Assembly (NCBI GenBank): GCA_946482575.1
Contig: CAMLRZ010000010.1
Coordinates: forward strand, 1-43,794
Reading direction: 5' to 3'
DNA: 43,794 nt
Source: an uncultured Candidatus Saccharibacteria bacterium
GTDB lineage: Bacteria > Patescibacteria > Saccharimonadia > Saccharimonadales > UBA4665
Shown here: positions 35,070-41,807 of the stretch, one piece after another
Layout of the letters: every line of letters starts with the position of its first letter
Position numbering within the stretch: position 1 is the first letter of the stretch
Program-made: the position numbers and the translations under genes
The notes under the pieces: generated by a model
The model's input: the letters and a program-made list of their open reading frames with translations, nothing else
What the model was told of the DNA's origin: nothing
Database searches by the model: none

Positions 35070-35936
35070 TCAATTTCTAAGTTGCCACTGGTTTGCGCCT
35101 AACGCCTGAATGACGCCCTGTATTTCAAGCATCGTGAGCGCTTGGTTGAACTGCTGTACGGTGAGACCACTCTGCTGCAAGAGCTGGGAGCCCTCGCGGT
35201 AGCCTTGATATATAAGCGTTATAATTGCTTGCTCCTGCGGATTATTGCTGTGTGGTTGTGGCTTCTTTGCTCCTGCAATACCTAATACCTGCAAAATATC
35301 GTTCGCACTTGTAACGGGAGTGGCGCCAGTCTTTATGAGATTATTGGTGCCAGCGGAAAGTGGGCTGGTTATATTTCCGGGCACCGCTAATACTTCTCTT
35401 CCCTGATCCAAAGCAAAGCTTGCCGTGTGGAGTGTGCCGCTTTTTTGCGCCGCCTCGGTGACTAAGAGAGCGTGGGCTAGGCCCGAAACTAACCGATTCC
35501 GTTCTACAAAAAACCATTTCTGAGGGTGTACATCAGGGGCGTATTCGCTTACTAATGCCCCACCCTGCTGCAACAGACGCTGGGCAAGCTGGTGATGTGA
35601 CGATGGATAAATCTGCCCTAGACCACCGGGCAGTACTGCCAGACTGATGCCACCCGCATCAAGCGCCGCCTGGTGTGCAATGCTGTCTACACCGATAGCC
35701 AAACCGCTAATAACAACCACGCCCGCTCGCGCCAGATCAGTGGCTAACTGCCGAGTTACTTCTTTGCCGTAGGCGGTTACTTTGCGACTGCCCACAATAG
35801 CGACCCGGGGTCGTTGCATAATATCTTCCCAGTTATTTGAGCGAATAAATAGTTGTGAAGGTGGCTGATCTATCTGTAGTAATTCTTGTGGAAATGCTGG
35901 GCTTTGCGGTTGTAGCTGCTGTATACTAACGGTCAT
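35070..35936 (-). CDS. dprA: DNA processing protein DprA
   Basis: DprA loads RecA on incoming single-stranded DNA during natural transformation. The Rossmann core is clear: RVAIVGSRKVTAYG, VVISGLAIGVDSIAH, LAVLPGGLGQIYP and ERNRLVSGLAHALLVTEA. A C-terminal winged-helix domain is present (QEQAIITLIYQGYREGSQLL onwards). At 288 residues it is compact and lacks the N-terminal SAM-like domain. AAGGA lies about 7 nt before the ATG. Competence genes are widely kept in CPR bacteria. Confidence 0.94.
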   Translation of the reverse strand: MTVSIQQLQPQSPAFPQELLQIDQPPSQLFIRSNNWEDIMQRPRVAIVGSRKVTAYGKEVTRQLATDLARAGVVVISGLAIGVDSIAHQAALDAGGISLAVLPGGLGQIYPSSHHQLAQRLLQQGGALVSEYAPDVHPQKWFFVERNRLVSGLAHALLVTEAAQKSGTLHTASFALDQGREVLAVPGNITSPLSAGTNNLIKTGATPVTSANDILQVLGIAGAKKPQPHSNNPQEQAIITLIYQGYREGSQLLQQSGLTVQQFNQALTMLEIQGVIQALGANQWQLRN

Positions 35937-36052: not shown

Positions 36053-36081
36053 TTGACACGACCACATCTTTTTGTTAGAAT
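36053..36081 (+). promoter_or_regulatory. Consensus promoter of the structured RNA
   Basis: TTGACA (36053-36058), exactly 17 bp, TAGAAT (36076-36081). The expected start is near 36088. No open frame with a plausible start follows. Confidence 0.85.
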
Positions 36082-36087
36082 TGCAAA

Positions 36088-36471
36088 TTGTAAGCGTTAG
36101 TACGACGTTTACGTACCTTATATCCCCCATTTCTAACAATTTGTTAGATTGCTCTAGAGCGTGCTGCGCGCCAAAGTTGTTACCCTCCACTTTCAGTTCA
36201 GCGTTTGTCTTAGGACTAACATGCGCTCTAAAGCAAACTAACCCCTTTAAGCACCGTACTTGCTTCGGCAGATACGGCGACCTAACAAGAGTGAGTCCAA
36301 AAAGATGGTCCTCTGCGACCGGCACGCCGCTTTATGGAGTTTTGGCGCGCGATGCTTCACTTAGGTGGGCTTGAAGGGTCGGGTTCTTCGGAATCCTTCG
36401 GGGATGTTGCCTCGGTAACGTCCCCACTAACAGGCCTCTGAGCGGTGCCCACCCCCTCTCGGAGGCCTTTT
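36088..36471 (+). ncRNA. Candidate structured non-coding RNA, about 385 nt, unassigned
   Basis: Bounded by a consensus promoter and a terminator hairpin. Foldable elements: UUCG-capped hairpins at 36254-36277 and 36381-36396; a 9-bp hairpin at 36400-36425; a 6-bp hairpin in 36132-36148; a perfect 10-bp long-range match between 36166-36175 and 36341-36350; and a 7-bp match between 36155-36161 and 36224-36230 that crosses it, a possible pseudoknot. Size suits RNase P RNA or tmRNA, but I find neither the RNase P GAGGAAAGTCC region nor tmRNA's T-arm or CCA end. Confidence 0.55.
36432..36471 (+). terminator. Terminator of the structured RNA
   Basis: 11-bp stem AGGCCTCTGAG (36432-36442) with CTCGGAGGCCT (36458-36468), 15-nt loop, then TTTT up to 36471. 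The -10 box of the next gene follows immediately. Confidence 0.7.
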
Positions 36472-36488
36472 AGTATACAAGAATTATT

Positions 36489-38435
36489 ATGAGCGAATTT
36501 ACTACTGACACTTTCCCTAACGACGACGGTTTTCACCCTGGCGAAAATCTGCTTTACTCTAATGAGCAGCTTGCGCCCGCGTGCGAATTGTTGGCTGAGG
36601 TATCCGACCATCCCGTAGAGGAATTTTGGCAGCTAATTGGCGATTTTCGTACGCAGACACACCGTGGCGACGGAACTATGTCGGATGCGCGATGGAATGC
36701 GGCCGACCGTGAGCTGGCGTCTCGTACACCAAGAGGCGATTTTACTCCGTATGAAATCCCAGAAAAGTTGGCTCGTACGTGGGCGAGCGTTCTTTCGGGT
36801 GCCACCTATACGGAACGCATTATTAGAGTAGATGAGCTAGCCGGTGACGATCACAAACACATTACACACTCGCTGTTATTTGATGAAAATAGCACCGCCT
36901 ATGTTGGCGAGCAGCTAACCCGAGCCACGCAAGACTTACCGGCGTTTCGTGAACGCGTCGCTGAATTGGGCGGAGCCACGGCTGTGGTGGAAAGTTTGCA
37001 AAAATTACAGCTTGAGCTACAAACTCAGTTTGATTGGGCGTTCGTGGTGCAAGGCATTAACTTGCACGGCGGTTTTGGGCTTTCCATTGCCTCGTTTTCG
37101 AGCATGCGTAAGCGGTATGTAGAGCTGGCGGAAGACGCTTTGAACACGCTTCGCCTAGAAAGCGTTCAAGATCGTGTGACCAAAATTGCGGCCATGAAAC
37201 AGAGTATTGCTGCTAGTTTTGCCGGCACGGATGAAAGCTGGAATAGAAAAGACCCCCTGTACTACTACCTGGTGGCTTGCGAGCGTAACGCCAACAATGA
37301 ACCATCTGTCTACGACCTCCATGCACGAATATTGAACAACGTATGCGAATATGTCCCCCGTCGCATCAGCGAAGAGGCGGAGCAAGCTCGTGAACAGCAG
37401 CGCACAGCTCGGGCAGCCGAGATTCAAGCTGCGTATAAAGATCATACGGAGCAATCTGTTCCTACTTTGAGCGGCAAAGCTCGCAAGCGCGCAGGTTATG
37501 ATGGGTTGTGGAACGCCCTCATTGGCCGCACCGAAGACAAAGACGTACAGCCCATGCTCGACAATGAGGCAATCCGTGTGCTTTCTACGCTTCATGCTTT
37601 GCGCACGATGGTTGAACCGTCATTCGATGGTGTTCACGACGCACACACTTGGCAGCAAGAAGTTCGCGATTACGAGCAAACACTTACAGAAGAATATGCT
37701 GCGCTCGGGTATCAGAAAGGGCTGCCGTACAAAGAGAGCGTGGGTGCTCGTTTGGATTGGCTTAGTAGTAACTGGGATTTTGTTGCCAGCCAGGCCCGCG
37801 CGATTCCGGAATTTCCGGTGCAACGGGTTGCTGCCGCGCTATTTCCAGAGGTAGCCTCCACGATTCAACAGCAAGAACAAACAGCCGAGACCGAACGCAC
37901 TGCTGCCGTGGCGCAACGCTTGGGCGCAGTGGCTCTGGAGCAATTACGCGTGCGAGAGGTGGATTGGGAAATTCTGCCGGTGGAACATATTGGCGAACGA
38001 ATCCGTCAAGAGGTAGCGCAGATGACCAAAGGCAAACGCCAGGACGGCGGCCGCCGTGAGCTGCAAGAGGTACGCGTGCGGGATCTGATTGAACTAAGCA
38101 CTCTATTTGATGATGTCGTGGTACACGTTTCCAGAGAGAAAGACGGTATTACGCGCCGCAAAAATGAGCCCTATTTTGTAATCGACTTTACCTATGGTGG
38201 CCAAAAATTTGCTTTGGCCGAGAACTTGGTGCTCGATAACGCTACATTTATACTGCCCGAATCTGATTTTTCGTGGCAGGATGTCTTCTCGTTACCCCGC
38301 GGTGCTGTGGGTGAATTTGGCGCGCAGCGCATTAACCACCCCGCTGTGGATGAATCGGGCGAATACGAAGGCGGTCCAAGCGCCCATGTTAATGCCATTT
38401 TCGCAAAACTCGACAAAGCTTTACAGCAAGCGTAG
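36489..38435 (+). CDS. Large soluble protein of unknown function
   Basis: A 648-residue protein that I do not recognise. It is acidic and mostly helical, with charged coiled-coil stretches near residues 292-325 (EEAEQAREQQRTARAAEIQA) and 455-475. The last 120 residues look alpha/beta (VVVHVSREKDG; PYFVIDFTYGGQKFALAENLVLD). There is no signal peptide, membrane helix or known catalytic motif. A TATACA box ends 9 nt before the ATG, so it may be read from a leaderless transcript distinct from the upstream RNA. Confidence 0.65.
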   Translation: MSEFTTDTFPNDDGFHPGENLLYSNEQLAPACELLAEVSDHPVEEFWQLIGDFRTQTHRGDGTMSDARWNAADRELASRTPRGDFTPYEIPEKLARTWASVLSGATYTERIIRVDELAGDDHKHITHSLLFDENSTAYVGEQLTRATQDLPAFRERVAELGGATAVVESLQKLQLELQTQFDWAFVVQGINLHGGFGLSIASFSSMRKRYVELAEDALNTLRLESVQDRVTKIAAMKQSIAASFAGTDESWNRKDPLYYYLVACERNANNEPSVYDLHARILNNVCEYVPRRISEEAEQAREQQRTARAAEIQAAYKDHTEQSVPTLSGKARKRAGYDGLWNALIGRTEDKDVQPMLDNEAIRVLSTLHALRTMVEPSFDGVHDAHTWQQEVRDYEQTLTEEYAALGYQKGLPYKESVGARLDWLSSNWDFVASQARAIPEFPVQRVAAALFPEVASTIQQQEQTAETERTAAVAQRLGAVALEQLRVREVDWEILPVEHIGERIRQEVAQMTKGKRQDGGRRELQEVRVRDLIELSTLFDDVVVHVSREKDGITRRKNEPYFVIDFTYGGQKFALAENLVLDNATFILPESDFSWQDVFSLPRGAVGEFGAQRINHPAVDESGEYEGGPSAHVNAIFAKLDKALQQA

Positions 38436-38468: not shown

Positions 38469-38534
38469 AATACAAATGTGATGGCGTTTGCCGTTGCTGC
38501 ACACCGCGAAAATCTACATGATCGGAGCTTCATC

Positions 38535-39206
38535 GTGAAGTCTTCTGTTCTGCGTGCTGCCCTTCCCGTCGCCCTCCTGAGCCTGGCTCTGGTGACCGGC
38601 TGTTCTGGCAGCACCGAAAACACTGTCGACAATGATTCGGCCCAACACTCCAGCCCCCAGCCCACGTCTACCTGGCAGCCGGCTCCGGAGAACAAGTACG
38701 ACCCCTGCGCCATCGTCCACCAGGCGGAAGCTGCCCGCATCACCGGCACCTCGCTGCGCTGGATCGACCCCAACGAGGCCGACCCCTACGACTGGACCGA
38801 GCCCTCAAGCACACGAGCCTGCATCTTCACCGACCACAAGCCCGGCACCAAGTGGAAGAAGTCCGATGAGGACCTCACCGTCACCACCAAGGTCCTGGCC
38901 AAGCACGACGACGGCCGCGATAGCGCCACCGAGGCCTACGGCAGTACGGGCACCATGCTTCGGGGCATCGCCTCTGGCGAGCTGGGTCTGAAAGACAAGG
39001 ACACGGAAGTCCTCCTGCTGGTTCGTGGATCGGCTGACCCCGGTAACTTCTACCCGGACCCCACCGCGCATGACCTGGCTCACCCGCTGGGCGTCTTCAT
39101 CTGGCAGGGCAACATCCGCCTGACCATCCGGTCCACCACGCCCGCGCCGCGCGCCGATCTGCTGGCTCTGGCCACCAAGGCGGCCGCCCGCATGAACCTC
39201 AAGTAG
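38535..39206 (+). CDS. GC-rich lipoprotein-type exported protein B
   Basis: A 223-residue protein starting at GTG 38535, with GGAG 8 nt upstream. The N-terminus is a lipoprotein signal peptide with lipobox L-V-T-G-C23, followed by a Ser/Thr/Pro/Gln linker (to about 48) and a globular domain beginning DPCAIVHQAEAARITG. That opening resembles DUF3558-type actinobacterial lipoproteins, a tentative match. Two further Cys could form a disulphide. Codons are strongly GC-ending, unlike the gene before it. A long hairpin and a terminator follow. Confidence 0.72.
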   Translation: MKSSVLRAALPVALLSLALVTGCSGSTENTVDNDSAQHSSPQPTSTWQPAPENKYDPCAIVHQAEAARITGTSLRWIDPNEADPYDWTEPSSTRACIFTDHKPGTKWKKSDEDLTVTTKVLAKHDDGRDSATEAYGSTGTMLRGIASGELGLKDKDTEVLLLVRGSADPGNFYPDPTAHDLAHPLGVFIWQGNIRLTIRSTTPAPRADLLALATKAAARMNLK

Positions 39207-39401: not shown

Positions 39402-39505
39402 ATACAAAATGTGTGGGAGTATTCCCTTGCGCCAACCGCAACTATTCTGCCGATCAGAGTAGACACCGAACATCCACTTTCCCTGTTTCACCGAAAGGCA
39501 TCTCC

Positions 39506-40174
39506 ATGCGAAACCCTCGTAGGCCCAGTGCCCTACGCATCATCGGGGCCATTCTGGTTGGACTCGCTGCGCTCGTCATTTTGGTGCTCGCCGGTCGTAC
39601 CGACGACAGCAACAAGCAGGACGACCGCCCCGGCGGCACCACGGCCACCCTGGCTCCGTCGCCCGACGCGCTCGACGCCGAGGTTGCCCTGGAGGGCGTG
39701 GACGGTCCGCAGATGTGCAACGACATGCTCGACAAGAGCGTCGTGGAGTACAACACCCAGCGGAAGCCCATCGTGGTCAGCATGACGACCGACGGCGGCA
39801 CCACCACCAGCCTGCGGGAGATGTCCTGCACCTACAGTTCGCCGAACCGGTGGGCCGTGGGTCAGACTTCCTACCAGAAGCTGACGACGCTGGGCGTGGA
39901 GTACTACAACACCATTCGCGCCGGTCGCGACGACATGCTGACCGCCAAGCCCATCCCGGCCCGCGAGATGCCCACCGGCGTCACCAGCGCGTTCTACTTC
40001 ACGCCCACCGCCATGCCTGCCGACATGAGCTCCTGGTACCGGAACCCCGGTGTACAGATGCTGGTCGGTGATGAGCTGGTCGTTGTCTCGTTCGAGGACT
40101 TCGACGTCCTGCCCTCCGACCTCCGGGTGAGGATCATGAACAACGCCCTGAAGGACGTGGTCAGCGCCAAGTAA
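39506..40174 (+). CDS. GC-rich membrane-anchored exported protein C
   Basis: A 222-residue protein. ATG 39506 has AAGG 8 nt upstream; the frame is open further upstream but that part is the leader. One N-terminal helix (about 11-29) acts as anchor or uncleaved signal, followed by a Thr/Pro/Asp-rich linker and an external domain of about 155 residues with two Cys (PQMCNDML, REMSCTYSS). Helix-linker-domain layout and C/G-ending codons match genes B and D. Function unknown; probably surface-exposed. Confidence 0.7.
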   Translation: MRNPRRPSALRIIGAILVGLAALVILVLAGRTDDSNKQDDRPGGTTATLAPSPDALDAEVALEGVDGPQMCNDMLDKSVVEYNTQRKPIVVSMTTDGGTTTSLREMSCTYSSPNRWAVGQTSYQKLTTLGVEYYNTIRAGRDDMLTAKPIPAREMPTGVTSAFYFTPTAMPADMSSWYRNPGVQMLVGDELVVVSFEDFDVLPSDLRVRIMNNALKDVVSAK

Positions 40175-41041: not shown

Positions 41042-41120
41042 AGTGAAAATGCACTGCATTTGCAGGTTACTCCGTAACTGCCCGCTTGGGTATGCTGTCC
41101 TTCGCACAGAAAGTCTTGCT

Positions 41121-41807
41121 ATGCACGACGACGGTTTCAACGCGCCGCGCTCATCGCGCAAATCGCGGCGGCTGCGGATGGCCCTTGTGGGCTTCGTGGT
41201 CATGCTGCTTGCCGCACTGAGCACGCTGGCGGGTACAGGACACCTTTCCTTCTCCGGTGCCGCCAGGGACGATGTTGCGCAGTCTGCGTCGCCCACGCCT
41301 TCACCGCAGCCCACCATCACGATCCCCAATGACGCCACGGCCCTGCTCAGCGAGAACGAGGCACGCACCATCGCCGGTGTGGCCAAGCTCCACTGGGTCA
41401 GCAGCGGCGGTATCGAGGACCGTACCGGCAGGCTGAGCAGCGACACACGCTACGCCAACTTCAACTACGCCTACCCGGACCGCTCCCTGCGGTACGTCGA
41501 GGTTGCCATCTTCCGTGGCACCGACGAGTACGTCAACATGCGCAACCAATCCTTCGACGCCAACGTGGGTGAGCTCGACTGGTTCTACGTGAACTCCAGC
41601 GACCACCCGGAGGTGAGCGGTGCCCGTGACCCCTTTGTGTCTTACCGCTACACCCAAGAGGGATCGGTGGTCAGGATGCTGGGGTTCCGGTATCAGGACA
41701 CGAGCCTGAGGATCGAGGTCTGCAACCTGCCGACCGCTGATCTGTACAAGGCTGCCCAGCTGGTCATCGGCAAGCTGAACAACATGTACAAGGTGCTCTC
41801 TGTGTGA
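41121..41807 (+). CDS. GC-rich membrane-anchored exported protein D
   Basis: A 228-residue protein from ATG 41121: a basic head (SSRKSRRLR), one hydrophobic helix (about 19-38), a Ser/Pro/Thr linker (about 54-68) and an external domain beginning LLSENEARTIAGVAKLHW. That start resembles the EAARITG-SLRW segment of protein B, so B and D may be distant paralogues. Strong C/G-ending codon use. It is followed by a long hairpin and a terminator shared with der. Confidence 0.7.
   Translation: MHDDGFNAPRSSRKSRRLRMALVGFVVMLLAALSTLAGTGHLSFSGAARDDVAQSASPTPSPQPTITIPNDATALLSENEARTIAGVAKLHWVSSGGIEDRTGRLSSDTRYANFNYAYPDRSLRYVEVAIFRGTDEYVNMRNQSFDANVGELDWFYVNSSDHPEVSGARDPFVSYRYTQEGSVVRMLGFRYQDTSLRIEVCNLPTADLYKAAQLVIGKLNNMYKVLSV

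Follow-up and report, generated by a model that had tools for sequence, protein, structure and literature searches.

Heat-shock RNA thermometers, such as ROSE and FourU, sit in the leaders of hsp20 genes and act in cis. In Staphylococcus aureus, RNAIII and the Rsa RNAs carry C-rich loops (with a UCCC motif) that bind Shine-Dalgarno sequences and repress translation, as described in PMC3861533. In the Candidate Phyla Radiation, post-transcriptional regulation seems to have received little study; in the open-licence literature, titles and abstract beginnings gave no pointer to a saccharibacterial regulatory RNA, and Hsp20, non-coding, ncRNA and small RNA are absent as terms from the main text of a TM7x transcriptome paper (PMC10768705).

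The locus studied here belongs to an uncultured Candidatus Saccharibacteria bacterium, and the whole stretch of DNA that was analysed (43,794 nt) is referred to as the window. Judged from its sequence, the region from 36053 to 36471 is a stand-alone structured RNA gene of about 385 nt, which, in our assessment, is probably a trans-acting antisense regulator whose loop pairs with the ribosome-binding site of hsp20 and blocks its translation. With the ROSE and FourU thermometers it would share the control of small heat-shock protein translation via the Shine-Dalgarno sequence; however, thermometers act in cis, whereas the complementary strand belongs here to an RNA gene of its own, at another place on the chromosome (in the relative G084, the RNA gene and hsp20 lie far apart on one contig, about 774 kb against 130 kb). 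If true, this would be an unusual control of a small heat-shock gene, exerted by a conserved trans RNA instead of a thermometer in the gene's own leader.

Results

The RNA gene and its surroundings

A reading of the window made from its letters (hereafter, the sequence-only reading) had proposed a structured RNA of about 385 nt with promoter and terminator. This proposal was borne out, and the family is broader than that reading had stated. The gene and its signals are the following:

35070 to 35936, minus strand: dprA, the divergent neighbour (PF02481, E 1.2e-72)
36053 to 36081, plus strand: putative promoter, TTGACA-N17-TAGAAT with TG before the -10 element (site search; same kind of site upstream of 90/90 members)
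36088 to 36471, plus strand: RNA gene (fold z -6.56; related RNAs recognised in 91/96 loci), with the start inferred ~7 nt past the -10 element and the end placed at the T run
36432 to 36471, plus strand: terminator hairpin and TTTT (fold, inverted repeat; TTTT in 84/90 members)

The promoter-like site (TTGACA at 36053-36058, a 17-nt spacer and TAGAAT at 36076-36081) agrees with the consensus at 11 of 12 positions. In the window it is weak on its own, because 1.0 site is expected in the 901 bases scanned (both strands) and the promoter scan gave 2. Among the relatives, a site of the form TTGACn-N16-18-T[AG]nnnT occurs at most 330 nt upstream in 90/90 members, against 4/90 controls (the stretch 900-1230 nt downstream of each member); this count covers 90 of 96 loci, the remaining six being unrecognised or having short upstream sequence. 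The terminator, an 11-bp hairpin followed by TTTT, is seen both in the fold and as an inverted repeat. An automated terminator scan reported none, probably because the T run has only four residues and the loop is long. Together with dprA/topA and pth/der, which lie on the opposite strand in most loci, the promoter-like site and the TTTT point, by sequence only, to an independent transcription unit.

The sequence-only reading had seen no credible frame in the region, and we agree: its two ORFs, of 100 and 125 aa, overlap each other on opposite strands and have no Pfam match. When both were compared by tblastn with 95 member loci, the best E-values were 3e-10 and 6e-14; nevertheless, the matches fall on both strands alike and are mostly short pieces, as a conserved RNA would give, and the spacings between conserved blocks spread over the three frames (30/28/25 and 34/26/24), so a protein-coding reading was rejected. 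A cis-regulatory leader was rejected as well, since pth, the usual downstream neighbour, is transcribed towards the RNA, and the 648-aa gene that comes next in the window is without a relative close to the RNA in any of the other 90 loci.

In the window, dprA, topA and pth were identified from ORFs and Pfam, and a der-like GTPase by eye. Upstream of the RNA, in opposite orientation, DprA lies in 75/91 loci (window counted) and TopA in 76/91; downstream, convergent, Pth lies in 77/91 and Der in 56/91; these counts come from a synteny script that recognised 91 of the 96 loci examined, within a radius of 3.5 kb, and many loci span only 1.5 kb per side. The 648-aa gene itself (36489-38435), directly after the RNA, lacks a Pfam match, and none of the other 90 loci has a relative of it within 3.5 kb of the RNA; in the lineage of the window, it was probably inserted between the RNA and pth. 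Further along, three proteins (38478-39206, 39413-40174 and 41043-41807) look exported by eye and were possibly acquired; the first one shows a sub-threshold DUF3558 match (27.4 vs 34.1 bits) and sits in a GC-rich stretch (up to 0.65). Between topA and dprA, the segment 34128-34972 (~0.61 GC) contains overlapping ORFs, of which a 222-aa one gave no Pfam match and has no relative near the RNA in other loci.

Distribution in the class

The dprA neighbour served to locate relatives of the RNA. The closest DprA relatives come from two MAGs, one of Candidatus Saccharibacteria (55%, L001) and one of Patescibacteria (51%, L002). In L001, 503 bp separate pth from dprA; in L002, there are 540 bp between dprA and a 113-aa ORF. 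Neither gap contains an ORF of 100 aa, and both align with the RNA of the window in the promoter, in identical blocks of up to 19 bases and in the terminator. The longest block, used as a 19-nt pattern with at most three mismatches, matched in 107 of the 294 genomes searched (the class, here and below, is that of L001's genome). The exact and near-exact matches that were examined all fell within the same RNA, and many of the 3-mismatch ones are chance matches, because a reversed control pattern matched several genomes too.

A covariance model built from 46 members (E 0.01, strict filters) found the RNA in 152/294 class genomes, usually in one copy, and this number is a lower bound because of the strict filters. 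Among 40 of the 142 non-hit genomes, re-searched with laxer filters and E up to 1, 11 carry diverged versions (weakly matching, with E between 0.01 and 0.8). In every one of them CCCUCC stands where expected and a CCCUUU strand is present, with 8-9 of 9 pairs to the partner strand, the best of ~145 positions; DprA stands beside ten of them and Pth beside ten. Ten of the 11 (L401-L410) form a third lineage and the other one (L400) stands apart; one further member (L382, in G212) was met by chance. Additionally, a phylum-wide draw of 379 genomes with strict filters gave 24 matches, all in class genomes already known; the RNA's absence outside the class is provisional, because only 10 candidates per genome were scored in this search. 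By these searches, the RNA is widespread in the Saccharibacteria class.

Comparison with known RNA families

At curated cut-offs, the window has no match among the 4227 families of Rfam 15, and neither have 15 related loci; relaxed searches gave only far-below-cut-off matches. The covariance models also agree with the sequence-only reading in finding no match to RNase P RNA, tmRNA, 6S RNA or SRP RNA. For RNase P RNA (RF00010), the RNA gave no match and a full-length, over-cut-off match lies elsewhere in 16/16 relatives; for tmRNA (RF00023), ARAGORN found 0 in the window and a full-length tmRNA lies elsewhere in 16/16 relatives (15 over cut-off). Both are, similarly to our RNA, independent single-copy genes of similar size, but they sit elsewhere in relatives. 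6S RNA and bacterial SRP RNA are independent single-copy genes as well, but their models do not match the RNA: the 6S model (RF00013) gave weak sub-threshold matches at other places in 2/16 relatives, and a 6S-like single long hairpin is not seen in the fold of the RNA; each of the two SRP RNA models (RF00169 and RF01854) matched 0/16 relatives, against 11 and 10 of 14 control genomes. Moreover, a crude search of 800 kb of G084 for SRP54-type GTPase motifs gave no candidate. Since the SRP RNA models fail in 16 genomes and this search found no SRP54, the Saccharibacteria class may lack an SRP or have a very divergent one. A match to the Bacillus sRNA ncr1175 (RF02450; 32.3 bits, E 0.052, gathering cut-off 60) in 1/16 loci was taken as chance. 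Two alternatives had been offered for this region, a lineage-specific RNA and a highly diverged housekeeping RNA; the former fits these results.

Conserved structure

The minimum-energy fold of the RNA (-154 kcal/mol) is more stable than that of shuffled sequences (-116.2 kcal/mol; z -6.56, 0/100 shuffles). The structural features discussed below are:

36090 to 36112, plus strand: 5' hairpin, GUAAGCGU (36090-36097) with ACGUUUAC (36105-36112) (minimum-energy fold)
36115 to 36137, plus strand: C-rich segment ACCUUAUAUCCCCCAUUUCUAAC (81/90 members match ACCTTATACCCCC within 3 mismatches)
36133 to 36147, plus strand: CUAAC (36133-36137), which can pair with GUUAG (36143-36147) (CUAAC 5' of GUUAG in 71/90 members)
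36143 to 36242, plus strand: helix P3 with its outer extension, 36143-36147/36238-36242 and 36150-36161/36224-36235 (covariation, RNAalifold)
36174 to 36192, plus strand: hairpin closed by AAGU/ACUU around the 11-nt loop UGUUACCCUCC (36178-36188), where mRNA is proposed to pair (covariation; hsp20 complement in relatives)
36243 to 36252, plus strand: long-range helix, 5' strand CCCUUUAAGC (878/900 cells paired over 90 members)
36364 to 36370, plus strand: possible pseudoknot, 5' strand GGUGGGC (overlaps the long-range helix by two bases)
36369 to 36378, plus strand: long-range helix, 3' strand GCUUGAAGGG (covariation over 90 members)
36447 to 36453, plus strand: possible pseudoknot, terminator-loop strand GCCCACC (complement mostly kept)

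Aligning the relatives that flank dprA and testing them for covariation, a check proposed with the sequence-only reading, gave a positive result. The two best-supported long helices (36143-36161/36224-36242 and 36243-36252/36369-36378) had not been reported there. In P3, 11 of the 17 pairs show two-sided changes and 98.3% of the cells are paired; unconstrained RNAalifold predicts the same 17 pairs, and the inner P3 strands of lineage 2, although different in sequence, still pair. The loop hairpin has 5 pairs, two of which show two-sided changes (90.0% of cells paired). For P3 and the loop hairpin combined (13/22 pairs with two-sided changes, 96.4% of cells paired), the covariation score is 0.299, against 0.112 for shuffled alignments (0/500) and at most 0.114 for slid partners.

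The long-range helix (CCCUUUAACC/GGUUGAAGGG) has 13 compensated cells over 90 members, against a shuffle maximum of 4, the shuffles leaving the relatedness of the members in place. The pattern used to recognise it fixes part of the 3' strand and, therefore, only its free positions could vary. This count went from 96 to 90 loci, given that L293 and L323 were unrecognised and L100, L118, L125 and L131 lack the 3'-strand pattern. The window itself contributes one compensated pair, G-C for the C-G of the consensus. Between P3 and the 5' strand of this helix, L156 and L382 carry extra sequence, and the RNA seems therefore to tolerate insertions there.

Other pairings fared differently. Both UUCG-capped stems that had been described are present in the minimum-energy fold. 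The perfect 10-bp pairing of the sequence-only reading, with strands 175 nt apart (36166-36175/36341-36350), does exist in the window, but its conservation is unsupported: in the six relatives with the 3' block (the only comparable ones), the best of several registers keeps 7-8 of 10 pairs, and it was dropped as a conserved helix. The crossing 7-bp pairing (36364-36370/36447-36453) is present and mostly kept, but it is nearly invariant and shows no covariation. Its complement GGGUGGG/CCCACCC is kept in most members and broken in L131 (the tally was one base out of register, and only the kept complementarity is used here); because this complement does not vary, we take the pseudoknot as suggested. 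By eye, UUAUACCC pairs with GGGUGUAA in lineage 1 but no longer does so in lineage 2; this pairing was discarded.

At the 5' end, sequence-divergent hairpins occupy the place of the 5' hairpin in relatives (judged by eye only). In the C-rich segment that follows, the predicted unpaired probability is 0.96-0.99 over the first 17 positions and 0.40-0.48 over the last six. The pairing of CUAAC with GUUAG competes with the outer part of P3, and GUUAG, pairable with CUAAC on either side, is a possible switch.

The conserved loop and its complement at hsp20 start sites

The most conserved part of the RNA is the hairpin loop ACCCUCC. The three lineages share little beyond these bases in the loop, the closing stems and flanks being different: the third-lineage loop is UCACCCUCC and that of the lineage-2 member in G074 is ACCUACCCUCC, with the variants UCCCUCC in L400 and CCCUCU in L295. 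The C-rich loop is accessible in predicted folds. In those of eight members from the three lineages, ACCCU is unpaired (probability 0.98-1.0 in the window), and the last two C residues have an intermediate unpaired probability (0.51-0.68) in 5/8 (0.51-0.64 in the window), where G36179 in the loop is predicted to be mostly paired (unpaired probability 0.12).

Some of the pattern matches, in opposite sense, are ribosome-binding sites, and the gene behind them codes for an Hsp20/alpha-crystallin protein (PF00011, E 2.8e-17), whose start in G084 reads MARRNRDDDLLLEEDELTAAFLGDD. The sequence-only reading, right about a structured RNA, had seen neither the anti-Shine-Dalgarno loop nor this target. 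Out of 54 RNA-bearing genomes (seven of which came to notice via their hsp20 site in the pattern search), 47 have an hsp20 match and 45 a close one; the nine without a close match (seven with none, two with a weak one) are MAGs and may be incomplete. Eight of the 45 start sites were misread by the script and left out (G284, G127, G192, G066, G099, G174, G222 and G269), leaving readable starts in 37 genomes; a tally of 38 rows includes one false gene (G174).

Complementarity was ranked over the gene starts of one genome from each of two lineages; a simple script, instead of a gene finder, had picked these starts over 800 kb of the contigs, which measure 821 kb in G084 and 900 kb in G074. Among 832 starts of G084, that of hsp20 ranks first in length of exact complement to the loop hairpin (15 nt, followed by recA with 11 and two others with 10); the complement begins one base ahead of GGAGG and ends directly before ATG. 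The hsp20 start also ranks first in duplex energy (-31.8; mean -10.3, sd 4.0). Among 771 starts of G074, which belongs to lineage 2, hsp20 again has the longest complement (13 nt; next 10), using the 3' side of the hairpin, that is, the other side than in G084; in duplex energy it ranks fourth, three other starts being better. With the whole RNA as query, hsp20 keeps its first place by match length in both genomes.

The same complementarity recurs in other relatives of these two diverged lineages. A complement of at least 9 nt to the genome's own loop is found in 31/37 hsp20 leaders, whereas genome-wide it is found in 7/832 and 4/771 genes of G084 and G074 (hsp20 counted, windows differing slightly); in the other 6/37 leaders the complementarity is weak (at most 8 nt). 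The sequence GGAGGGTA occurs in 25/29 lineage-1 hsp20 leaders vs 4/832 leaders of G084, and AAGTGGAGG in 7/8 lineage-2 hsp20 leaders vs 2/771 leaders of G074. Most lineage-2 hsp20 leaders have a mismatch at the base after GGAGG. Two limits apply to all these hsp20 counts: they are not independent, because the genomes are related, and five bases of nearly every match are the Shine-Dalgarno core GGAGG, where any anti-Shine-Dalgarno loop would pair.

When no gene was targeted, GGAGGGTAACAA-N0-6-ATG gave 39 matches in the 294 genomes and its reversed control gave 0. These are the RNA itself (11), hsp20 (20) and other sites (8); 33 of the matches were read and six were placed by coordinates (five hsp20, one RNA). 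The eight other sites belong to recA (the exact GGAGGGTAACAA before its ATG in G091, L372), an FKBP-type isomerase (exact 12-nt complement in G067), a membrane protein in two genomes (exact 12-nt complement in G113 and G179), a tautomerase-like and a reductase-like protein and two short frames, the names of the membrane, tautomerase-like and reductase-like proteins being given by eye. In G084, the 11-nt loop complement in the recA leader (C2:269919) lies upstream of the Shine-Dalgarno sequence.

Discussion

In the mechanism that we favour, the RNA would be transcribed alone from its own sigma-70 type promoter, and a scaffold formed by P3, the 10-bp long-range helix and, possibly, the terminator-loop pseudoknot would hold out the loop hairpin. 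The loop ACCCUCC, complementary to Shine-Dalgarno sequences, would have hsp20 mRNA as its principal target; together with its 5' or 3' flank it could pair over 9-18 nt with the hsp20 ribosome-binding site in most genomes read, blocking translation initiation, and stress would lift this block. A trans-acting translational repressor is the simplest reading because an exposed anti-Shine-Dalgarno loop is combined with long complementarity to one recurrent start. Under this mechanism, third-lineage hsp20 start sites are expected to carry GGAGGGUGA, following the loop UCACCCUCC. Other targets or a broader role are possible, given that the genomes compared are related, that the Shine-Dalgarno core is shared and that 6/37 leaders have no more than 8 nt of complement.

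A conserved scaffold of 385 nt exceeds the needs of a one-target antisense RNA, and the conserved 5' segment ACCUUAUACCCCC falls outside what the hsp20 model explains. The RNA might instead be a class-wide switch for the heat-shock and repair programme of Saccharibacteria, a reading that we regard as doubtful. GUUAG would here swap between the 5' CUAAC and a CUAAC beyond P3, the 3' domain would tie the long-range helix to the terminator loop, and refolding under stress would expose or hide ACCCUCC, freeing hsp20 and perhaps recA and the FKBP isomerase. If true, this would make it, within the literature searched, the first broadly conserved regulatory RNA of the Candidate Phyla Radiation with a named target.

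A general anti-Shine-Dalgarno RNA, acting on many mRNAs or on the mRNA channel of the 30S subunit, with hsp20 merely as its best-matched client, appears unlikely. Such a role would be in line with the little that the lineages share in the loop beyond ACCCUCC, with the eight other ATG-proximal sites of exact 12-nt complement and the recA match in G084, and with other conserved unpaired segments that could contact further partners; nevertheless, of the 28 matches outside the RNA itself in the search of 294 genomes, 20 are hsp20, which is also the longest match in two genomes, and no other gene appears in more than two genomes. The opposite action, in which pairing stabilises or opens hsp20 mRNA (activation) or the mRNA sponges the RNA, is improbable: RNAIII does activate hla by antisense pairing (PMC3861533), but the complement found here covers the Shine-Dalgarno sequence and often the spacer to the start codon, where pairing normally excludes the 30S subunit. 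Finally, a structural or housekeeping RNA (a ribonucleoprotein scaffold, for instance a replacement of SRP RNA or 6S RNA) with an incidental hsp20 match is highly improbable, for although the RNA is large, single-copy in most matching genomes and kept beside dprA or topA and pth, and the SRP and 6S slots look empty given 0/16 relatives with SRP RNA and 2/16 with 6S matches below cut-off, an SRP helix-8-like core is not seen in it (by eye), the SRP itself may be missing or unusual (no SRP54-type candidate in a crude search of 800 kb of G084), the fold is unlike the single long hairpin of 6S RNA, and a scaffold would not be expected to expose a conserved loop that is complementary to a recurrent mRNA.

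The repressor of hsp20 translation, which we consider the probable role, would be a directly testable regulator where few are known, cultured oral species included. RNAIII and the Rsa RNAs (PMC3861533) resemble it in the accessible C-rich loop, in the complementarity to Shine-Dalgarno sequences and in the proposed block of initiation, RNAIII being also a large, stand-alone RNA. RNAIII encodes a peptide, whereas a conserved reading frame was not found in the saccharibacterial RNA. The latter differs further in having no Rfam match over cut-off, a chaperone gene as target and one such loop recognised. Additionally, the present RNA persists across a large part of a class and its neighbours are conserved, whereas the staphylococcal RNAs are not known to have so wide a range. 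The mode of action that we propose is therefore of a known kind; as far as our searches reach, the family, the breadth of its conservation and its target are new within the literature searched.
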